This document shows positions 26,595 to 45,388 of a stretch of 54,481 bases of DNA, in pieces; position 1 is the first letter of the stretch, and the number at the start of each line of letters is the position of its first letter. The DNA is from Paracoccaceae bacterium (GTDB lineage Bacteria; Pseudomonadota; Alphaproteobacteria; Rhodobacterales; Rhodobacteraceae): the NCBI GenBank assembly GCA_024227475.1, contig JAAEUI010000535.1, forward strand, positions 1 through 54,481, written 5' to 3'. The position numbers and the translations under genes are program-made. The notes beneath the pieces are model-generated. The model did no database searches, was not told the DNA's origin, and was given only the letters and a program-made list of their open reading frames with translations.

Positions 26595-28685
26595 ATGAGC
26601 CGCCGCCCTGAAATCCTTTTCCCGTTGTTTGCTGATCTGAAGCAGCTGGACGGTGTTGGCCCAAAAATCGCCCAGAACTTCGAGAATATGGAGGTGACGC
26701 GCCCGCGCGATCTGCTGTTTCAACTGCCCCAATCGATCATCAACCGGCAGATAACGGCAAGTGTGCAGGATGTGGAGCCGCCCACTGTGGCGACGGTTGA
26801 GGTGCAGGTTGGGCTGCATCACCCCAATGCGGTGAAGGGGCGGCCTTACCGGGTGACGGTTAAGGACGCCAAAACCACGTTTCAACTGGTGTTTTTTCAT
26901 GCCCGCGCTGACTGGTTGCGGGAACAATTGCCAAGCGGCCAGCGCCGGGTCGTGTCAGGCAAGGTGGAGCTGTTTGACGGCATTGCCCAGATGGTGCACC
27001 CCGATTTCATCCTGCGCACCGAAAAGGCCGATGCAATTCCTCAGAACGAACCGGTCTATCCGCTGACGGCAGGGATAACCCAGAAGACTATGTTCAAGGC
27101 AGCGGCATCAGCGCTGGAGCGGGCGCCTGATCTTCAGGAATGGATCGCCCCATCAGTGCTGGAAAAACACGGCTGGGTCGGCTGGCGGGAGGCGTTGGGA
27201 ACTGCCCATGCGCCAAAAACCACACGCGATGTGGCCAGCAATGCGCCACCGCGCGAGCGGCTGGCTTATGATGAGATGCTGGCGCATCAACTGACCCTGG
27301 CGCTGGCCCGCGCGCGGTTGCGCCGGGCCAAAGGGGTTGAGACAAGCGGCGACGGTAAGCTGCGCAATCAGGTGATGGCAGCGCTGCCTTATAAGCTGAC
27401 CAACGCGCAACTGCGCTCGATTGATGAAATTACCGGGGATATGGCGGCACCTTTGCGTATGAACCGGTTGCTGCAGGGCGATGTCGGGTCTGGCAAAACC
27501 GTGGTTGCCCTGTTGGCCTTGCTGGCGGCGGTGGAATCCGGCGGGCAGGGGGTGATGATGGCCCCAACCAGCATCCTGGCACGCCAGCACCTGGAAGCTT
27601 TGCAGCCGCTGGCAGAATCGGCCGGCGTGGTGCTGGAACTGCTGACCGGGCGGGACAAGGGACGCGAACGGAGCAAGAAGCTGGCGGCACTTGAAAAAGG
27701 CGACATTCACATTCTGGTCGGCACCCATTCGGTGTTTCAGAAAGACGTTGAGTTTCAGAACCTGCGGCTGGCCATTGTCGACGAGCAGCATCGTTTTGGG
27801 GTGCGGCAGCGGATGGATCTCGGTGCCAAGGGGCGGGCGGTCGACATTCTGGTGATGACCGCCACACCGATCCCGCGCAGCCTGGCGCTGGTAAGTTATG
27901 GTGACATGGACGTGTCGCTGCTCGATGAAAAACCACCGGGGCGCAAACCGGTGGAAACGGTGCTGGTCTCCAATTCGCGGTTTGACGAGGTGGTGAATCA
28001 CCTCAAACATGCTGTGGAACAGGGTCGGCAGGCCTATTGGGTGTGCCCGCTGGTTGGCGAGAGCGAAACCGTGGAATGGGCGGCGGCGGAAGAGCGATTT
28101 CGCACCCTGCGTTTTGCGCTTGGCGAAGAAAACGTCGGGTTGGTGCATGGGCAGTTGCCGGTGGCAGAGAAAGACTCGGCCATGGCGGATTTTGTTGCCG
28201 GAAATACCAAGGTGCTGGTGGCAACCACGGTGATCGAAGTTGGTGTTGATGTGCCCTCAGCCAGCATCATGGTGATCGAGCAGGCGGAAAAATTCGGCCT
28301 GGCACAACTGCATCAGCTGCGCGGCCGGGTCGGGCGTGGGGCTGAGGCCTCGACCTGCCTGTTGATGTATGCGCATCCGCTGACTGAAGGCGCTGAACGG
28401 CGGCTGAAGGTGATTCGAGACACCGAGGATGGCTTCAGAATTTCCGAGGAGGATCTGAAACTGCGTGGGGCCGGGGACTTGCTGGGGGTGGCGCAATCCG
28501 GCCTGCCTCGATTCCGCATTGCCGATCTGGAAGTGCAGGCTGATCTGATGAAAACCGCGCAGGATGATGCGCGTTTGCTGTTGCATGAGGACCCAAAACT
28601 GGCCTCAGACCGAGGCGCGGCGGCACGGGTGCTGCTGTATCTGATGGAACAGGAAAAAGCTATTCGTTTGATTTCAGTGGGTTAA
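26595..28685 (+). CDS. recG: ATP-dependent DNA helicase RecG
   Basis: RecG remodels stalled forks and branched DNA. In the 696 residues an N-terminal wedge/OB domain (LKQLDGVGPKIAQNFE, 1-150) precedes a superfamily 2 helicase core. The core has Walker A GDVGSGKT near 293, the box DEQHRFGVRQRMDL near 396 and MTATPIPRSLAL near 420. Motif V/VI sequences are TTVIEVGVDVPSASIM and QLRGRVGRG near 575. All motifs look intact. It follows ligA by 15 bp and is followed almost at once by LexA boxes belonging to the next small gene, the first of which lies only 6 bp past the recG stop. Confidence 0.96.
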   Translation: MSRRPEILFPLFADLKQLDGVGPKIAQNFENMEVTRPRDLLFQLPQSIINRQITASVQDVEPPTVATVEVQVGLHHPNAVKGRPYRVTVKDAKTTFQLVFFHARADWLREQLPSGQRRVVSGKVELFDGIAQMVHPDFILRTEKADAIPQNEPVYPLTAGITQKTMFKAAASALERAPDLQEWIAPSVLEKHGWVGWREALGTAHAPKTTRDVASNAPPRERLAYDEMLAHQLTLALARARLRRAKGVETSGDGKLRNQVMAALPYKLTNAQLRSIDEITGDMAAPLRMNRLLQGDVGSGKTVVALLALLAAVESGGQGVMMAPTSILARQHLEALQPLAESAGVVLELLTGRDKGRERSKKLAALEKGDIHILVGTHSVFQKDVEFQNLRLAIVDEQHRFGVRQRMDLGAKGRAVDILVMTATPIPRSLALVSYGDMDVSLLDEKPPGRKPVETVLVSNSRFDEVVNHLKHAVEQGRQAYWVCPLVGESETVEWAAAEERFRTLRFALGEENVGLVHGQLPVAEKDSAMADFVAGNTKVLVATTVIEVGVDVPSASIMVIEQAEKFGLAQLHQLRGRVGRGAEASTCLLMYAHPLTEGAERRLKVIRDTEDGFRISEEDLKLRGAGDLLGVAQSGLPRFRIADLEVQADLMKTAQDDARLLLHEDPKLASDRGAAARVLLYLMEQEKAIRLISVG

Positions 28686-28690
28686 TAGAG

Positions 28691-28772
28691 GTTCGCCAAA
28701 TGTTCTCATAAAATGCTTGCAAAACAAGAACAATAGTGGAACATTAAGGGAACTTAAGAGAACACGAAGAAC
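28691..28772 (+). promoter_or_regulatory. Cluster of LexA (SOS) operators before a small membrane-protein gene
   Basis: Exact alphaproteobacterial LexA boxes are GTTCGCCAAATGTTC at 28691-28705, GAACAATAGTGGAAC at 28728-28742 and GAACATTAAGGGAAC at 28739-28753. The last two share a GAAC half-site. Further GAAC half-sites follow at 28760 and 28769 with spacers of 6 and 5. A possible -35 (TTGCAA, 28717-28722) lies between the first and second box, so LexA would cover the promoter. Boxes were found by reading both strands for GTTC-N7-GTTC. The nearest downstream start is 28788. Confidence 0.85.
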
Positions 28773-28787
28773 GCAAGGACCCGCCAA

Positions 28788-28910
28788 ATGATGAAAGACA
28801 TGCTGAAAATTGTCGCCCGCTCCCCCCAGTCGGTATTGGAAGATGTGGTTGGCCTTTCGGCTGTTGTCACTATGGTGGTCGTGGCCCTGCATTTCCCTGG
28901 TTCGATTTAG
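28788..28910 (+). CDS. 40-residue single-span membrane protein, probably SOS-induced
   Basis: This short gene reads MMKDMLKIVARSPQSVLEDV for the first 20 residues. A hydrophobic segment of about 16 residues (roughly 20-35, containing VVGLSAVVTMVVVALHF) follows, ending PGSI. That predicts a cytoplasmic amphipathic, basic N-terminus and one inner-membrane span. A ribosome-binding site AAGGAC lies 8-13 bases upstream. A second ATG directly after the first may be used. The promoter region is packed with LexA boxes, so it should be induced by DNA damage. Caulobacter SidA (29 aa, SOS-induced division inhibitor) and E. coli TisB (membrane toxin) are functional analogues to consider; I see no sequence proof of either. 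It may belong to a family known only as hypothetical proteins. Confidence 0.7.
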   Translation: MMKDMLKIVARSPQSVLEDVVGLSAVVTMVVVALHFPGSI

Positions 28911-29109
28911 CCTGCGGTCCGTCCGTACCTTTTGCATCGGTCTTGCCTTGCCTGATGCCCGTGGCCCAACCCTCATCCGGGTCGCCGGAACACCAAATGC
29001 AGTGATCTGTCTCTCACTGCGACTGTCTCACCTGGAGCGGTTCAGGTTTGTCTAAACCTGAACCGCAATAGTTCCTCCGGGGTCGGACGATAGGACCTGC
29101 TGACAACTG
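28911..29109 (+). other. Structured 3' region between the small gene and its terminator; possible ncRNA
   Basis: No gene is seen, but the segment is rich in complementary pieces. GGTCC/GTCC (28916-28924) can pair with GGAC and GGACC (29085-29088 and 29093-29097) around a GATA bulge. GCAGTGA (28999-29005) pairs with TCACTGC (29014-29020). A perfect 13-bp hairpin GCGGTTCAGGTTT / AAACCTGAACCGC spans 29037-29066. In addition AACACCAAATG (28989-28999) is exactly complementary to CATTTGGTGTT (29120-29130), which lies inside the terminator and could compete with it. It may be a long 3' UTR, an independent small RNA, or simply repeats. Confidence 0.4.
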
Positions 29110-29144
29110 CGCCGCACACCATTTGGTGTTGCGGCGTTTTTTTT
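29110..29144 (+). terminator. Strong rho-independent terminator
   Basis: CGCCGCACACCA (29110-29121), a TT loop and TGGTGTTGCGGCG (29124-29136) form an almost perfect 12-bp stem followed by eight T. It ends the plus-strand transcript that starts at the LexA-controlled promoter. It has no T-run on the minus side. Confidence 0.88.
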
Positions 29145-29293: not shown

Positions 29294-29740
29294 TCAGACG
29301 GTCGCAATCAGGCTTTGCATGGCTTCCAATGTGGCATCATAAGCCAGCAGTATTGAGGCGTGGCGGTTTTTGTAATTGCGCGCAGGTTCAAGAACTTCGA
29401 GGTTCTGGAACGGGCTGGCGGGCACCGGGCCATCGTTTTTGAGCATGTTCTTCAGCGCGTCCCGGGCAGTGCGAATTTCATCGACCGTTCTGCCAATAAC
29501 AACACTTGCCAGCACGCTGGCAGATGCCTGACCCAGGGCGCAGGCCTTCACATCCTGGCCAAACGCACTGATTTTGCCATCCGTCAGTTTGATGTCCACA
29601 GTGACAGTTGAGCCGCAGAGTGGCGAACGTTTCATCACGGTGGCGTCCGGGCATTCCAGCCGTTCAGTCAGGGGAATCTCTGCCGCCAGCGCCAGAATGC
29701 GCGTGGAGTAGAGTTTTATCATGTCAGATGCCTGGTTCAT
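29294..29740 (-). CDS. Iron-sulfur cluster assembly scaffold protein (IscU/NifU N-terminal-like)
   Basis: A 148-residue protein with the SufU/IscU-like fold. Conserved Cys are visible in RLECPDATVMKRSPLCGS (residues about 28-45) and in VKACALGQASASV (about 70). IscU has three cluster ligands; here a Cys after about residue 100 is missing, so the third ligand would differ, as in a divergent subfamily. It would hold nascent Fe-S clusters. The ATG at 29740 is preferred to the GTG just before it. It is divergent from hisI, with 74 bp between starts. Scaffold function is inferred from the fold only. Confidence 0.8.
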   Translation of the reverse strand: MNQASDMIKLYSTRILALAAEIPLTERLECPDATVMKRSPLCGSTVTVDIKLTDGKISAFGQDVKACALGQASASVLASVVIGRTVDEIRTARDALKNMLKNDGPVPASPFQNLEVLEPARNYKNRHASILLAYDATLEAMQSLIATV

Positions 29741-29814
29741 CACGAACGGCCTTTTATCGTCGGCTATTCCGTCCTAGTTAGGTCTGAACCACGGATAAGG
29801 AAAGCGAAAGAGTG

Positions 29815-31040: not shown

Positions 31041-31654
31041 TTCTTGCGCAACACGTAAACGCGTGATTTCATGTCTTTTCCGGGCAGGTGTGTGCCATAT
31101 TCCTTGAACATCAGGCTGGCTGAGCCTGTATCAAGGTAATTCATCAGGGCACCTTCATATTCCGGGTGTTCCAGAGTGCGATCGTTGAACGAAAAGACGA
31201 AAAAATCACCCCGCAGCATTTTTCGGATGATTTCGTGAAACAACTCCATCCGGGCTGCGCCGGCGCCGATGACTCCGATCGCGGCAAACAACCTGTAGTC
31301 ACCAGAAGCATAAGTCAGTTCGCTGTCCGGGCTGCTTTGCCACAAGGTTCGATAGAGGTTCAGCGCCTCCGCTCTTTCGAGCATTTCCGCAGTCAAGTCG
31401 CAGCCATCAATCCGGGCGAACCCTTCTTTGGCCAGCGCCATACCGGACAGGCCGGTGCCGCAGCCCAGATCCAGCAGGGGGGCGTTTTTGTCGGGGGCAA
31501 ATTTGGCCAGTGCTTTGGCGCAGCGAGCAGGGGTGACGTAACCGTTTGCGGCCACTTCTTCGTCATAGGTTTCGGCCCAATCGGCATAAAGCGCCTGTGT
31601 GTCTGTTACAGTTCGCAGGCTATATGCTTGGTCCAGATATTTTTTTTCGGCCAT
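31037..31654 (-). CDS. Class I SAM-dependent methyltransferase
   Basis: A 205-residue Rossmann-fold methyltransferase. Motif I is LLDLGCGTGLSGMAL near residue 61 and the following acidic turn is IDGCDLTAEMLERA near 85. The N-terminal YADWAETYDEEVAANGYVTP is typical of small-molecule or ubiquinone-type methyltransferases, but the substrate cannot be told. Its stop overlaps the gluQ start by four bases, so both are in one unit. The ATG at 31654 follows a weak ribosome-binding site. No membrane segment. Confidence 0.85.
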   Translation of the reverse strand: MAEKKYLDQAYSLRTVTDTQALYADWAETYDEEVAANGYVTPARCAKALAKFAPDKNAPLLDLGCGTGLSGMALAKEGFARIDGCDLTAEMLERAEALNLYRTLWQSSPDSELTYASGDYRLFAAIGVIGAGAARMELFHEIIRKMLRGDFFVFSFNDRTLEHPEYEGALMNYLDTGSASLMFKEYGTHLPGKDMKSRVYVLRKN

Positions 31655-42449: not shown

Positions 42450-42464
42450 GTTCTTATTATGTTC
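42450..42464 (+). promoter_or_regulatory. LexA box of uvrA
   Basis: GTTC-TTATTAT-GTTC is an exact alphaproteobacterial LexA site 65 bp upstream of the uvrA ATG. It covers the likely -10 TATTAT (42455-42460); a weak -35 TTCAAA is at 42433-42438 with a 16-bp spacer. LexA control of uvrA through this motif is established in Rhodobacter and relatives. Confidence 0.9.
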
Positions 42465-42529: not shown

Positions 42530-45388
42530 ATGGCCGAGCTGAAAAACATCGAAATTCGTGGCGCGCGCGAGCATAATCTGAAGTCGATTGACGTTGATAT
42601 TCCCCGTGATCGGCTTGTGGTGATCACCGGGCTGAGCGGTTCGGGCAAGTCCTCGCTGGCTTTTGACACGATCTATGCCGAGGGGCAGCGCAGATACGTG
42701 GAATCGCTGTCGGCCTATGCGCGGCAGTTTCTGGATATGATGCAGAAACCGGATGTGGATCACATTTCGGGCCTGTCGCCGGCGATTTCAATTGAGCAGA
42801 AGACGACGAGCAAGAACCCGCGCTCTACCGTGGGGACCGTGACCGAGATTTACGACTATATGCGGTTGCTGTTTGCCCGGGTCGGGACGCCGTATTCACC
42901 CGCCACCGGACTGCCGATCGAGGCGCAGCAGGTGAGCGAGATGGTGGATCGGATCATCGCCATGGAAAACGGCACGCGATGTTATCTTCTCGCCCCGATT
43001 GTGCGGGACAGGAAGGGTGAATATCGCAAGGAATTTCAGGAGCTTAAGAAGCAGGGATTCCAACGGGTCAAGGTTGATGGCGCGTTTTACGAGCTGGATG
43101 ACACCCCGGAACTGGACAAGAAATTCCGCCATAACATCGACGTTGTGGTGGATCGACTGGTGGTCAAGGAAGGGCTGGGAACCCGGCTGGCGGACAGTCT
43201 GCGCACAGCGCTCGATCTGGCTGACGGGATTGCAATCCTTGAAACTGCGCCGCGAGAGGGAGAGCCCGAGCGGATCACGTTTTCGGAGAATTTCGCCTGT
43301 CCGGTAAGCGGCTTTACAATTCCGGAAATTGAACCCCGGTTGTTTTCTTTCAACGCGCCGTTCGGAGCCTGTCCGGAATGTGACGGGCTTGGGGTGGAGT
43401 TGTTTTTTGACGAGCGGTTGGTGGTGCCGGACCCGACGATTTCGCTTTATGCCGGGGCGCTGGCACCCTGGGCTAAAGGCAAGTCGCCGTATTTCCGCCA
43501 GACGATTGAGGCGATTGCCCGGCATTACGAGTTTGACAAGGATTTGGAGTGGCGGGAGTTGCCGCAAAAGGTGCAGCAGGTGATGCTGCGCGGATCGGGC
43601 GATGAGGAGATCAAGTTCCGTTATGACGAGGGCGGTCGCGTCTATGAAATCTCGCGTTCCTTTGAGGGTGTGATCCCGAATATGGAGCGGCGCTATCGCG
43701 AGACTGATTCCAACTGGATTCGGGAGGAGTTTGAACGCTATCAGAACAACCGGCATTGTGGGACCTGTGATGGTTTCCGGCTGCGCCCTGAAGCGCTGGC
43801 GGTGAAAATCGGCGGGCTGCACGTTGGGCAAGTGGTGCAGATGTCGATTTCCGAGGCGCTGGAGTGGGTTGAGGCGGTTCCTGCCACGCTGAACCAGCAG
43901 AAGAACGAGATTGCCCGCGCGATTCTGAAGGAAATCCGCGAGCGGCTTGGGTTTCTGGTCAACGTCGGGCTGAATTACCTGACCCTTTCGCGGGCTTCCG
44001 GGACATTATCCGGGGGTGAGAGTCAGCGCATTCGTCTGGCCAGCCAGATCGGGTCCGGGCTTACGGGCGTGCTTTATGTGCTGGATGAGCCCTCGATTGG
44101 GTTGCATCAGCGCGATAATGACCGGCTGCTGGTAACGCTGAAGAACCTGCGCGACCAAGGCAATACCGTGATCGTCGTCGAGCATGACGAAGAGGCGATC
44201 CGCTCGGCTGATTATGTGCTCGATATCGGGCCCGGAGCCGGGGTGCATGGCGGAGAGATCATTGCCAAGGGCACACCGGGGCAGATCGAGAGATGCAAGA
44301 AATCAATTACCGGTCAGTATCTTACCGGCCAGAGGCAGGTTCCAATTCCGATGGAACGGCGGGTTGGGAACGGCAAGAATGTTGTTGTTGAAGGTGCGAC
44401 CGGCAACAACTTGAAAAGCGTGACGGCCAAGTATCCGCTGGCGACATTCACCTGTATCACCGGGGTGTCGGGTGGTGGCAAATCAACCCTGACGATTGAA
44501 ACTTTGTTCAAGACCGCCTCGATGCGGTTGAATGGAGCGAAACAAACGCCGGCACCTTGTGAGGCCATCAGGGGGCTGGAGTATCTCGATAAAGTTATCG
44601 ACATCGACCAGCGCCCCATAGGGCGCACGCCGCGCTCTAACCCGGCGACCTATACCGGGGCGTTCACACCGATCCGCGATTGGTTTGCCGGGCTGCCCGA
44701 GGCCAAGACGCGCGGCTATAAGCCGGGGCGGTTTTCCTTCAACGTCAAAGGCGGGCGCTGTGAGGCGTGTCAGGGTGATGGCGTTATCAAGATCGAGATG
44801 CATTTTTTACCGGATGTTTATGTGACTTGCGAGAGTTGCCGGGGTAAGCGTTACAACCGCGAAACGCTGGAAGTTTTGTTTAAAGGCAAGAGCATAGCGG
44901 ACATTCTTGATATGACGGTCGGGGATGCAGAACAATTTTTCCGCGCCGTTCCCGCAATCCGCGACAAGATGACTGCGCTGCTGAGGGTTGGGCTTGGCTA
45001 TATCAAGGTTGGGCAACAAGCGACGACCTTGTCAGGCGGCGAAGCACAACGGGTGAAACTGTCCAAAGAGCTGAGCAAACGGTCAACCGGAAGGACGCTC
45101 TACATTCTGGATGAGCCGACGACGGGGCTGCATTTTGAGGATGTGCGGAAACTACTGGAAGTGCTGCATGAACTGGTGGATCAGGGCAATTCGGTGCTGG
45201 TGATCGAACACAATCTGGATGTGATCAAGACTGCGGACCATATCATCGATATCGGGCCGGAGGGCGGCGACGGTGGCGGCGAGATCGTCGCCACCGGGAC
45301 ACCGGAGGAAGTGGCGGAGAATCCGAAGAGTTATACCGGGCAGTATTTGAAGGAGTTGCTGGCCGCCAGCAAAGTTGCTGCTGAGTAG
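42530..45388 (+). CDS. uvrA: Excinuclease ABC subunit A
   Basis: UvrA recognises bulky DNA damage and loads UvrB. The 952 residues contain two ABC ATPase halves: Walker [11 protein letters not shown] near 34 and [10 protein letters not shown] near 645. Matching signatures are [19 protein letters not shown] near 490 and [15 protein letters not shown] near 835. Zinc-binding Cys pairs are seen in GACPECDG (near 280), in HCGTCDG (near 408) and in CEACQGDG...CESCRGKRY (near 744-770). The C-terminus is a normal UvrA tail. It is transcribed from an SOS promoter with an exact LexA box. Confidence 0.97.

Follow-up and report, generated by a model that had tools for sequence, protein, structure and literature searches.

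A probable SOS-induced dual-function transcript behind recG in Rhodobacteraceae: a 40-residue membrane protein with a structured 3′ untranslated region in many members

Induction by the LexA/RecA pair is established biology, and one of the SOS-controlled products of Escherichia coli is the single-pass toxic peptide TisB. TisB and DinQ have an amphipathic or charged membrane helix, and TisB is accompanied by an antisense RNA antitoxin or a long inhibitory leader. Dual-function RNAs, in which one transcript supplies both a small protein and a base-pairing RNA, are represented by RNAIII/delta-haemolysin and SgrS/SgrT, which are not known to be SOS-controlled. DinQ is described as a further SOS-controlled single-pass toxic peptide of E. 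coli (PMC3567139). In Caulobacter crescentus, the 29-amino-acid (aa) SidA is reported to bind FtsW (PMC4211646), and the filamentation of a lexA deletion is ascribed to sidA (PMC12700426). DidA is described as a damage-induced, SOS-independent, single-pass division inhibitor of 71 aa (PMC4211646). Here we analyse in silico a 54,481-nucleotide stretch of Paracoccaceae DNA (the window), which is a single contig of a draft genome (657 contigs, 79% complete) and in which a short gene behind LexA boxes directly follows recG. We read it as probably an SOS-induced, dual-function transcript, combining a SidA-like inhibitor of division or the envelope with a C-rich-loop regulatory RNA. At roughly even odds (about 0.5), this is a LexA-repressed, self-contained unit whose membrane protein delays division and whose 3′ untranslated region (3′UTR) acts, in many members, as a regulatory RNA.

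An initial annotation, made from the letters of the window, had proposed a 40-codon gene with a ribosome-binding site directly behind recG, and the coordinates agree with it. The recG gene of the open reading frame (ORF) list (696 aa) occupies 26595..28685 on the forward strand, and the ORF, which starts with ATG, runs from 28788 to 28910 on the same strand, with the Shine-Dalgarno sequence AAGGA (28775..28779, forward strand) 8 nt ahead of the start. Its predicted product is a 40-aa single-pass membrane protein, MMKDMLKIVARSPQSVLEDVVGLSAVVTMVVVALHFPGSI. Among homologs, a loosely defined Shine-Dalgarno-like motif lies upstream in 69/70, the start is ATG in 70/71 (as chosen by a script that preferred an ATG near the expected place) and the length is exactly 40 aa in 57/70. 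The ratio of nonsynonymous to synonymous differences (pN/pS), computed from 117-143 sequence pairs that are not independent of one another, is 0.38 in the frame of the ORF, whereas the two shifted frames give 1.13 and 2.04. Length and codon pattern together argue that selection acts on the peptide. A chance origin of the ORF is ruled out by this codon test and by a protein profile with matches in 220 of 248 genomes of the window's family, to judge by named relatives the Rhodobacteraceae.

That profile, built from 50 sequences, covers 219 of 247 genera at E ≤0.001 with one match per genome; a single-sequence search had found the protein in 181 of the 248 genomes at E ≤1. In a class-wide alphaproteobacterial sample, the five family members all gave E below 1e-12, and the best match in 380 non-family genomes (E=0.001) lay inside a long frame. 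Matches with E 0.001-0.1 were obtained in 42 of these 380, and 34 of the 43 matches fall in frames of more than 100 codons, the other 9 in shorter ones; one difference from SidA is that nothing credible beyond the family matched the protein in this sample. Among genomes missed by the profile (28, of which 20 were examined and 14 had a readable recG end), 10 show a box followed by a short hydrophobic ORF (9 clearly, L129 weakly), and the 4 readable ends with no box have no short hydrophobic ORF either, which suggests that profile-missed genomes often have a divergent copy. The unit is probably ancestral in Rhodobacteraceae.

Three exact LexA boxes ahead of the ORF had also been annotated, and all three (GTTCN7GTTC) are found within 28691-28753. 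Box 1 (GTTCGCCAAATGTTC, 28691-28705, forward strand) begins after a gap of 5 bases from the recG stop. Boxes 2 (28728-28742; GAACAATAGTGGAAC on the forward strand) and 3 (28739-28753; GAACATTAAGGGAAC on the forward strand) lie on the reverse strand and overlap by 4 bases. The whole window has six exact boxes, where shuffled versions average 1.91; none of 100 shuffles reached six, and 3 did in a repeat with fresh shuffles and the same sites searched as reverse complement. The total by itself is mildly unusual, and what is unusual is the presence of three in 63 bases. An internal positive control is provided by the exact box at 42450-42464, 65 bases ahead of the ATG (42530) of what we take from its sequence to be uvrA, the expected SOS gene of the window. 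In the same genome, lexA has an upstream GTTCN7GTTC box (L115) and recA has one upstream of its likely start (L116). Two more exact boxes in the window, at 31347-31361 and 43733-43747, are inside coding frames (the latter within uvrA) and are probably due to chance.

Across relatives, an exact box is present in 67 of 71 loci and one with at most one mismatch in 71/71 (two of the loci, L022 and L034, share the same core and are possibly a single genome). Of 60 further loci, picked by protein match and not by boxes, 59 have an exact box no more than 200 nt away; among control windows of 200 nt taken further upstream, mostly in recG, the figure is 4 of 1200. As read by eye from the alignment, relatives share GTTCaCaAATGTTCTcAaAAAGTTCTTTACA followed, after some 15-20 bases, by GAGAACAAAnnnGCAACA; operator 1 overlaps a -35-like TTTACA, and operator 2 (GAACN7CAAC) follows downstream, close to where transcription is expected to begin. 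The right half of box 1 in the window doubles as the left half of an operator that relatives keep (GTTCtcAaAAAGTTC); the right half of that operator has decayed in the window (28702-28716, GTTCTCATAAAATGC), and box 2 is an exact version of the downstream operator, which in most relatives reads GAACN7CAAC. This pattern points to operator turnover in the window, in which the right half of operator 1 was lost, exact boxes came to stand at neighbouring sites and boxes as such were kept. Predicted SOS control of the ORF is well supported in silico.

The position behind recG is equally constant. recG stands upstream in 30/30 loci from the first protein search and in 59 of the 60 further loci, where the ORF begins 50-315 nt past the recG match. 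The initial annotation would be refuted by a reading frame that drifts while the boxes persist, and relatives do not show this: frame, length and boxes are conserved together. Starting from recG instead, a search of named genomes found 54 relatives of the window's gene (48-80% identity), which together with the first 30 loci of the protein search gave 83 recG-end sequences, 72 with the ORF by profile; with L001 (the window again) left out and L017 and L053 added by hand, the unit is present in 73 of 82. It was not found at the recG end in L057, L060, L082 and five Sphingomonadales (L076, L078, L079, L080, L084), and the sequence of L043 ends just past its box. In L053 (5082-6331), about 900 extra bases come between recG and the box and ORF, both of them intact, which is why we consider that the unit stands apart from recG. 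The insert itself is possibly a mobile element.

It could be argued that the boxes belong to recG or to the convergent gene, with the ORF there by chance, all the more as LexA control of recG has been predicted for some alphaproteobacteria (PMC3323433). This explanation has a negligible probability: the boxes are downstream of recG and ahead of the ORF, they remain with the ORF where the two are parted from recG (L053, L017), and chance is already refuted by conservation, through the profile and the codon test.

The initial annotation had further described a basic N-terminus and one hydrophobic span, in agreement with hydropathy and charge counts. The best 19-residue hydropathy exceeds 1.6 in 50/50 members, and among 104 distinct 40-mers the mean net charge at residues 1-18 is +1.0, a charged residue occurs at 20-34 in one and at 35-40 in none. 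An AlphaFold2 model consists of a helix at 2-11, a kink at 12 and a helix at 13-39 (mean predicted local distance difference test score 91.7, predicted template modelling score 0.52). A single-pass membrane protein is therefore a well supported prediction in silico, and from its positive N-terminus and uncharged C-terminus the positive-inside rule predicts that the N-terminus is inside and the C-terminus outside. The consensus reads MxxxxKxxxxRSxxTLLQDAxGAAALxVMLxVxLHLPGxx, with Asp19, Gly22, Leu34 and Pro37 conserved in the membrane helix; the columns of the first 71 loci were anchored on Asp19, those of later loci were not, and two profile-missed genomes (L117, L118) have Glu in its place. 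No known family accounts for the protein: with 50 members scanned, the best E values were 0.016 in Pfam, 0.0063 in NCBIfam and 0.042 in PHROGs, from one member each, and a PDB sequence search gave nothing convincing (best E 0.42).

Like SidA, the product would be a very short alphaproteobacterial protein of the inner membrane under SOS control, LexA control and membrane span being predicted here. Unlike SidA, as far as the descriptions allow the two to be set apart, it has 40 aa, is linked to recG and, in many members, has a structured 3′UTR. If the proposed division role holds, it would also be comparable to DidA, YneA and SosA, described as damage-induced division inhibitors; unlike these, it is shorter (DidA has 71 aa) and belongs to a family with no Pfam or NCBIfam match.

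An alternative is a toxin of the TisB/DinQ type, which would enter the inner membrane, lower the proton-motive force, slow growth and favour survival. Size, LexA boxes and membrane helix fit such a peptide, and repression from two operators would suit a harmful product. Nevertheless, unlike that of TisB and DinQ, the membrane helix is neither charged nor amphipathic: it is uniformly hydrophobic, with no amphipathic moment at 20-37 (p 0.92) and the single charged case among 104 at 20-34, and therefore a TisB-like pore is disfavoured. Moreover, specific residues are conserved, the leader is probably short (median 37 nt from the assumed start, n=59), unlike the long inhibitory leader of tisB, and no conserved antisense stretch was seen in an alignment of 7 near relatives, only a hairpin and a terminator appearing conserved downstream of the ORF. 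Such a toxin is an unlikely explanation.

Somewhat less unlikely, although still doubtful, is a small membrane regulator of a partner outside the divisome, such as the sensor kinase CckA, another sensor kinase, a transporter, a protease or the control of gene-transfer agents. Many small single-pass proteins act in this manner, MgrB and AcrZ among them. In D. shibae, LexA sites are described in silico at pilus, flagellar and gene-transfer-agent promoters, and the same source mentions one at the cckA gene of R. capsulatus (PMC6473078). No candidate partner is linked to the unit, whose neighbours are recG and the convergent gene, a point of little weight given that targets need not be linked.

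A checkpoint protein acting on a membrane partner fits the LexA control, the single-copy peptide, the specific conserved residues and the lack of any antitoxin seen, and the divisome is the first candidate target because SidA offers a precedent in the same class. In an undamaged cell, LexA bound to two promoter-region operators would keep the unit off, and after DNA damage RecA-driven LexA cleavage would turn on one short transcript. From it would be made the 40-aa inner-membrane protein, which we infer to lie with its N-terminus in and its C-terminus out and whose Asp19-Gly22-Ala/Ser25-Leu26...Leu34-Leu36-Pro37 residues may dock on the partner. The septal FtsW/FtsI/FtsN complex would be the most likely one, so that division is delayed as by SidA in Caulobacter. 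In many members, the folded 3′UTR with its C-rich apical loops might in addition be a regulatory RNA that acts on translation starts rich in G, in the manner of sX13. The unit probably helps to halt growth during DNA repair. The fuller proposal, that one LexA-repressed transcript ancestral to the family blocks septal division and at the same time shuts down G-rich translation starts, is more tentative, and we place it somewhat short of even odds.

The structured 3′UTR RNA of relatives is a feature that the initial annotation missed. Between stop and terminator, 65 loci contain 61 copies of CTGTCCC, spread over 43 of them, and 64 copies of CTGCCTG, spread over 42, where shuffles average 2.2 and 2.8, some 3′UTRs having been ended at an early T-run (e.g., L018, L011, L048). 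In 63 of 66, the folding energy is lower than the average of the shuffles (median z -1.9), and the motif bases are unpaired with a mean probability of 0.76 against 0.49 for other pyrimidines, a comparison made without a shuffled control. Plain MAFFT alignment of 50 3′UTRs recovered the terminator alone, and close relatives and a covariance model were needed. The consensus of eight close relatives has a long closing stem that encloses three hairpins with C-rich loops, then the terminator, with little covariation among the eight (term -0.03, 3/25 pairs). In a flank-swap test, own flanks gave better pairing than those of other loci for the CTGTCCC and TGCCTC hairpins (0/200 permutations). Covariance model R1, built from these 8 sequences, matches 76 of 248 genomes (69 outside the training set by handle, 7 training), and wherever the ORF coordinate was known (70 of 70), the match is on the strand of the ORF and begins -4 to +62 nt from its end; this position check covered R1 matches only, 6 of the 76 having no ORF coordinate. 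Its successor R2 matches 109 of 248 (89 outside training by handle, 20 training), with a weak match in L053 (E 0.011). In alignment A5, 20/25 pairs changed on both sides and covariation is 0.367, against 0.133 shuffled and 0.03-0.06 slid, and in A4, which includes one probably chance row (the window), the values are 22/25 and 0.354, both alignments having been fitted to the structure, so that these pair counts lean towards it. Pairing of the 3′UTR in cis with the unit's own Shine-Dalgarno region was rejected, swapped pairs being at least as good in 1823 of 2000 permutations (n=66).

A covarying RNA with conserved loops might also suggest that the RNA is the main product and that the ORF mainly protects or couples the transcript. 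This is very unlikely in view of the pN/pS of 0.38, the near-fixed length and residues, and the profile of the ORF, which with 220 of 248 genomes reaches twice as many as the RNA model with 109.

The sX13 small RNA of Xanthomonas is described as Hfq-independent, with C-rich loops, and as repressing mRNAs with G-rich motifs near the start (PMC3771888). Like sX13 (RF02232), the present RNA has several stems with apical C-rich loops; unlike sX13, it is part of an mRNA, with a long closing stem and CUGUCCC/UGCCUC loops. The sX13 model gave 24.2 bits (E 1.6) in L008, below the cut-off of 50, and nothing at E ≤5 in the other 15 loci. In Rhodobacter sphaeroides, small RNAs including UdsC are described as cut from the 3′UTR of hypothetical-protein mRNAs (PMC9779115, PMC8625941), UdsC having 67 nt and an RpoHII-dependent promoter (PMC9779115). 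By description, the present RNA resembles UdsC in lying in the 3′UTR of an mRNA for a hypothetical protein; a term search of the text of PMC9779115 gives neither LexA nor recG. The proposed protein and RNA from one transcript likewise resemble, by description, RNAIII/delta-haemolysin and SgrS/SgrT.

In the window itself, the 3′UTR holds the hairpin GCATC-(GGTCTTGCCTTGCCT)-GATGC (28934..28958, forward strand), with a pyrimidine-rich loop, which may be what is left of the family RNA's first hairpin; by eye, the matching stems differ in the near relatives L031, L032, L033 and L048 and pairing is kept. The unit ends with the intrinsic terminator GCGCCGCACACCATTTGGTGTTGCGGCGTTTTTTTT (29109..29144, forward strand). 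A GCCGC..GCGGC-TTTT terminator lies within 250 nt past the stop in 62/70 homologs, and in 70/70 under a looser criterion that also takes some early T-runs. A stem of 13 perfect base pairs with a loop of 4 bases (GCGGTTCAGGTTT-GTCT-AAACCTGAACCGC) is found at 29037-29066 and was not seen in six aligned relatives. An Rfam scan of the window gave nothing at gathering cut-offs.

Several results weigh against the proposed checkpoint with its regulatory RNA. Neither R1 nor R2 matches the 3′UTR of the window, the sole window match lying elsewhere (E 0.72); with just one hairpin kept there, the RNA claim therefore rests on relatives. A genus-mate of the window has no R1 or R2 match either, and the two models miss over half of the 248 family genomes. 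The fitting of A4 and A5 counts here too, and the flank-swap test did not support the middle hairpin (111/200 permutations). For the protein, conservation has a weak helical-face periodicity (p 0.015-0.13). Finally, at least three genomes with a good lexA (G109, G054, G017) have no unit at recG and no profile match, and the unit is therefore dispensable in some lineages. A general coupling of unit loss to lexA loss was rejected on the same three genomes, G008 being doubtful.

In the abstracts and text passages of open-licence papers that were searched, those of PMC4809877 included, neither the protein nor the RNA was found described, nor an SOS checkpoint protein for Rhodobacteraceae. The unit would be a candidate for that role, present in most sampled genera and small enough for annotation to miss. 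If the 3′UTR RNA works, it would be, to our knowledge, the first SOS-controlled dual-function RNA, with conserved C-rich loops that supply a defined rule for its targets.

Some minor observations concern the wider family. One query found no plasmid copies of the unit. Genomes G029 and G059 have no LexA match, no profile match and only a partial recG-like match in a frame of about 1180 codons, presumably Mfd, a possible loss of the SOS circuit. L061, a metagenome-assembled genome titled Sphingomonadales, has the unit and a recG 68% close to that of the window, so its title may be wrong. The convergent gene of the window (29294-29743, reverse strand), which we take to resemble an iron-sulfur scaffold, has a homolog in 58 of 85 sequences searched, the window and its duplicate L001 counted.
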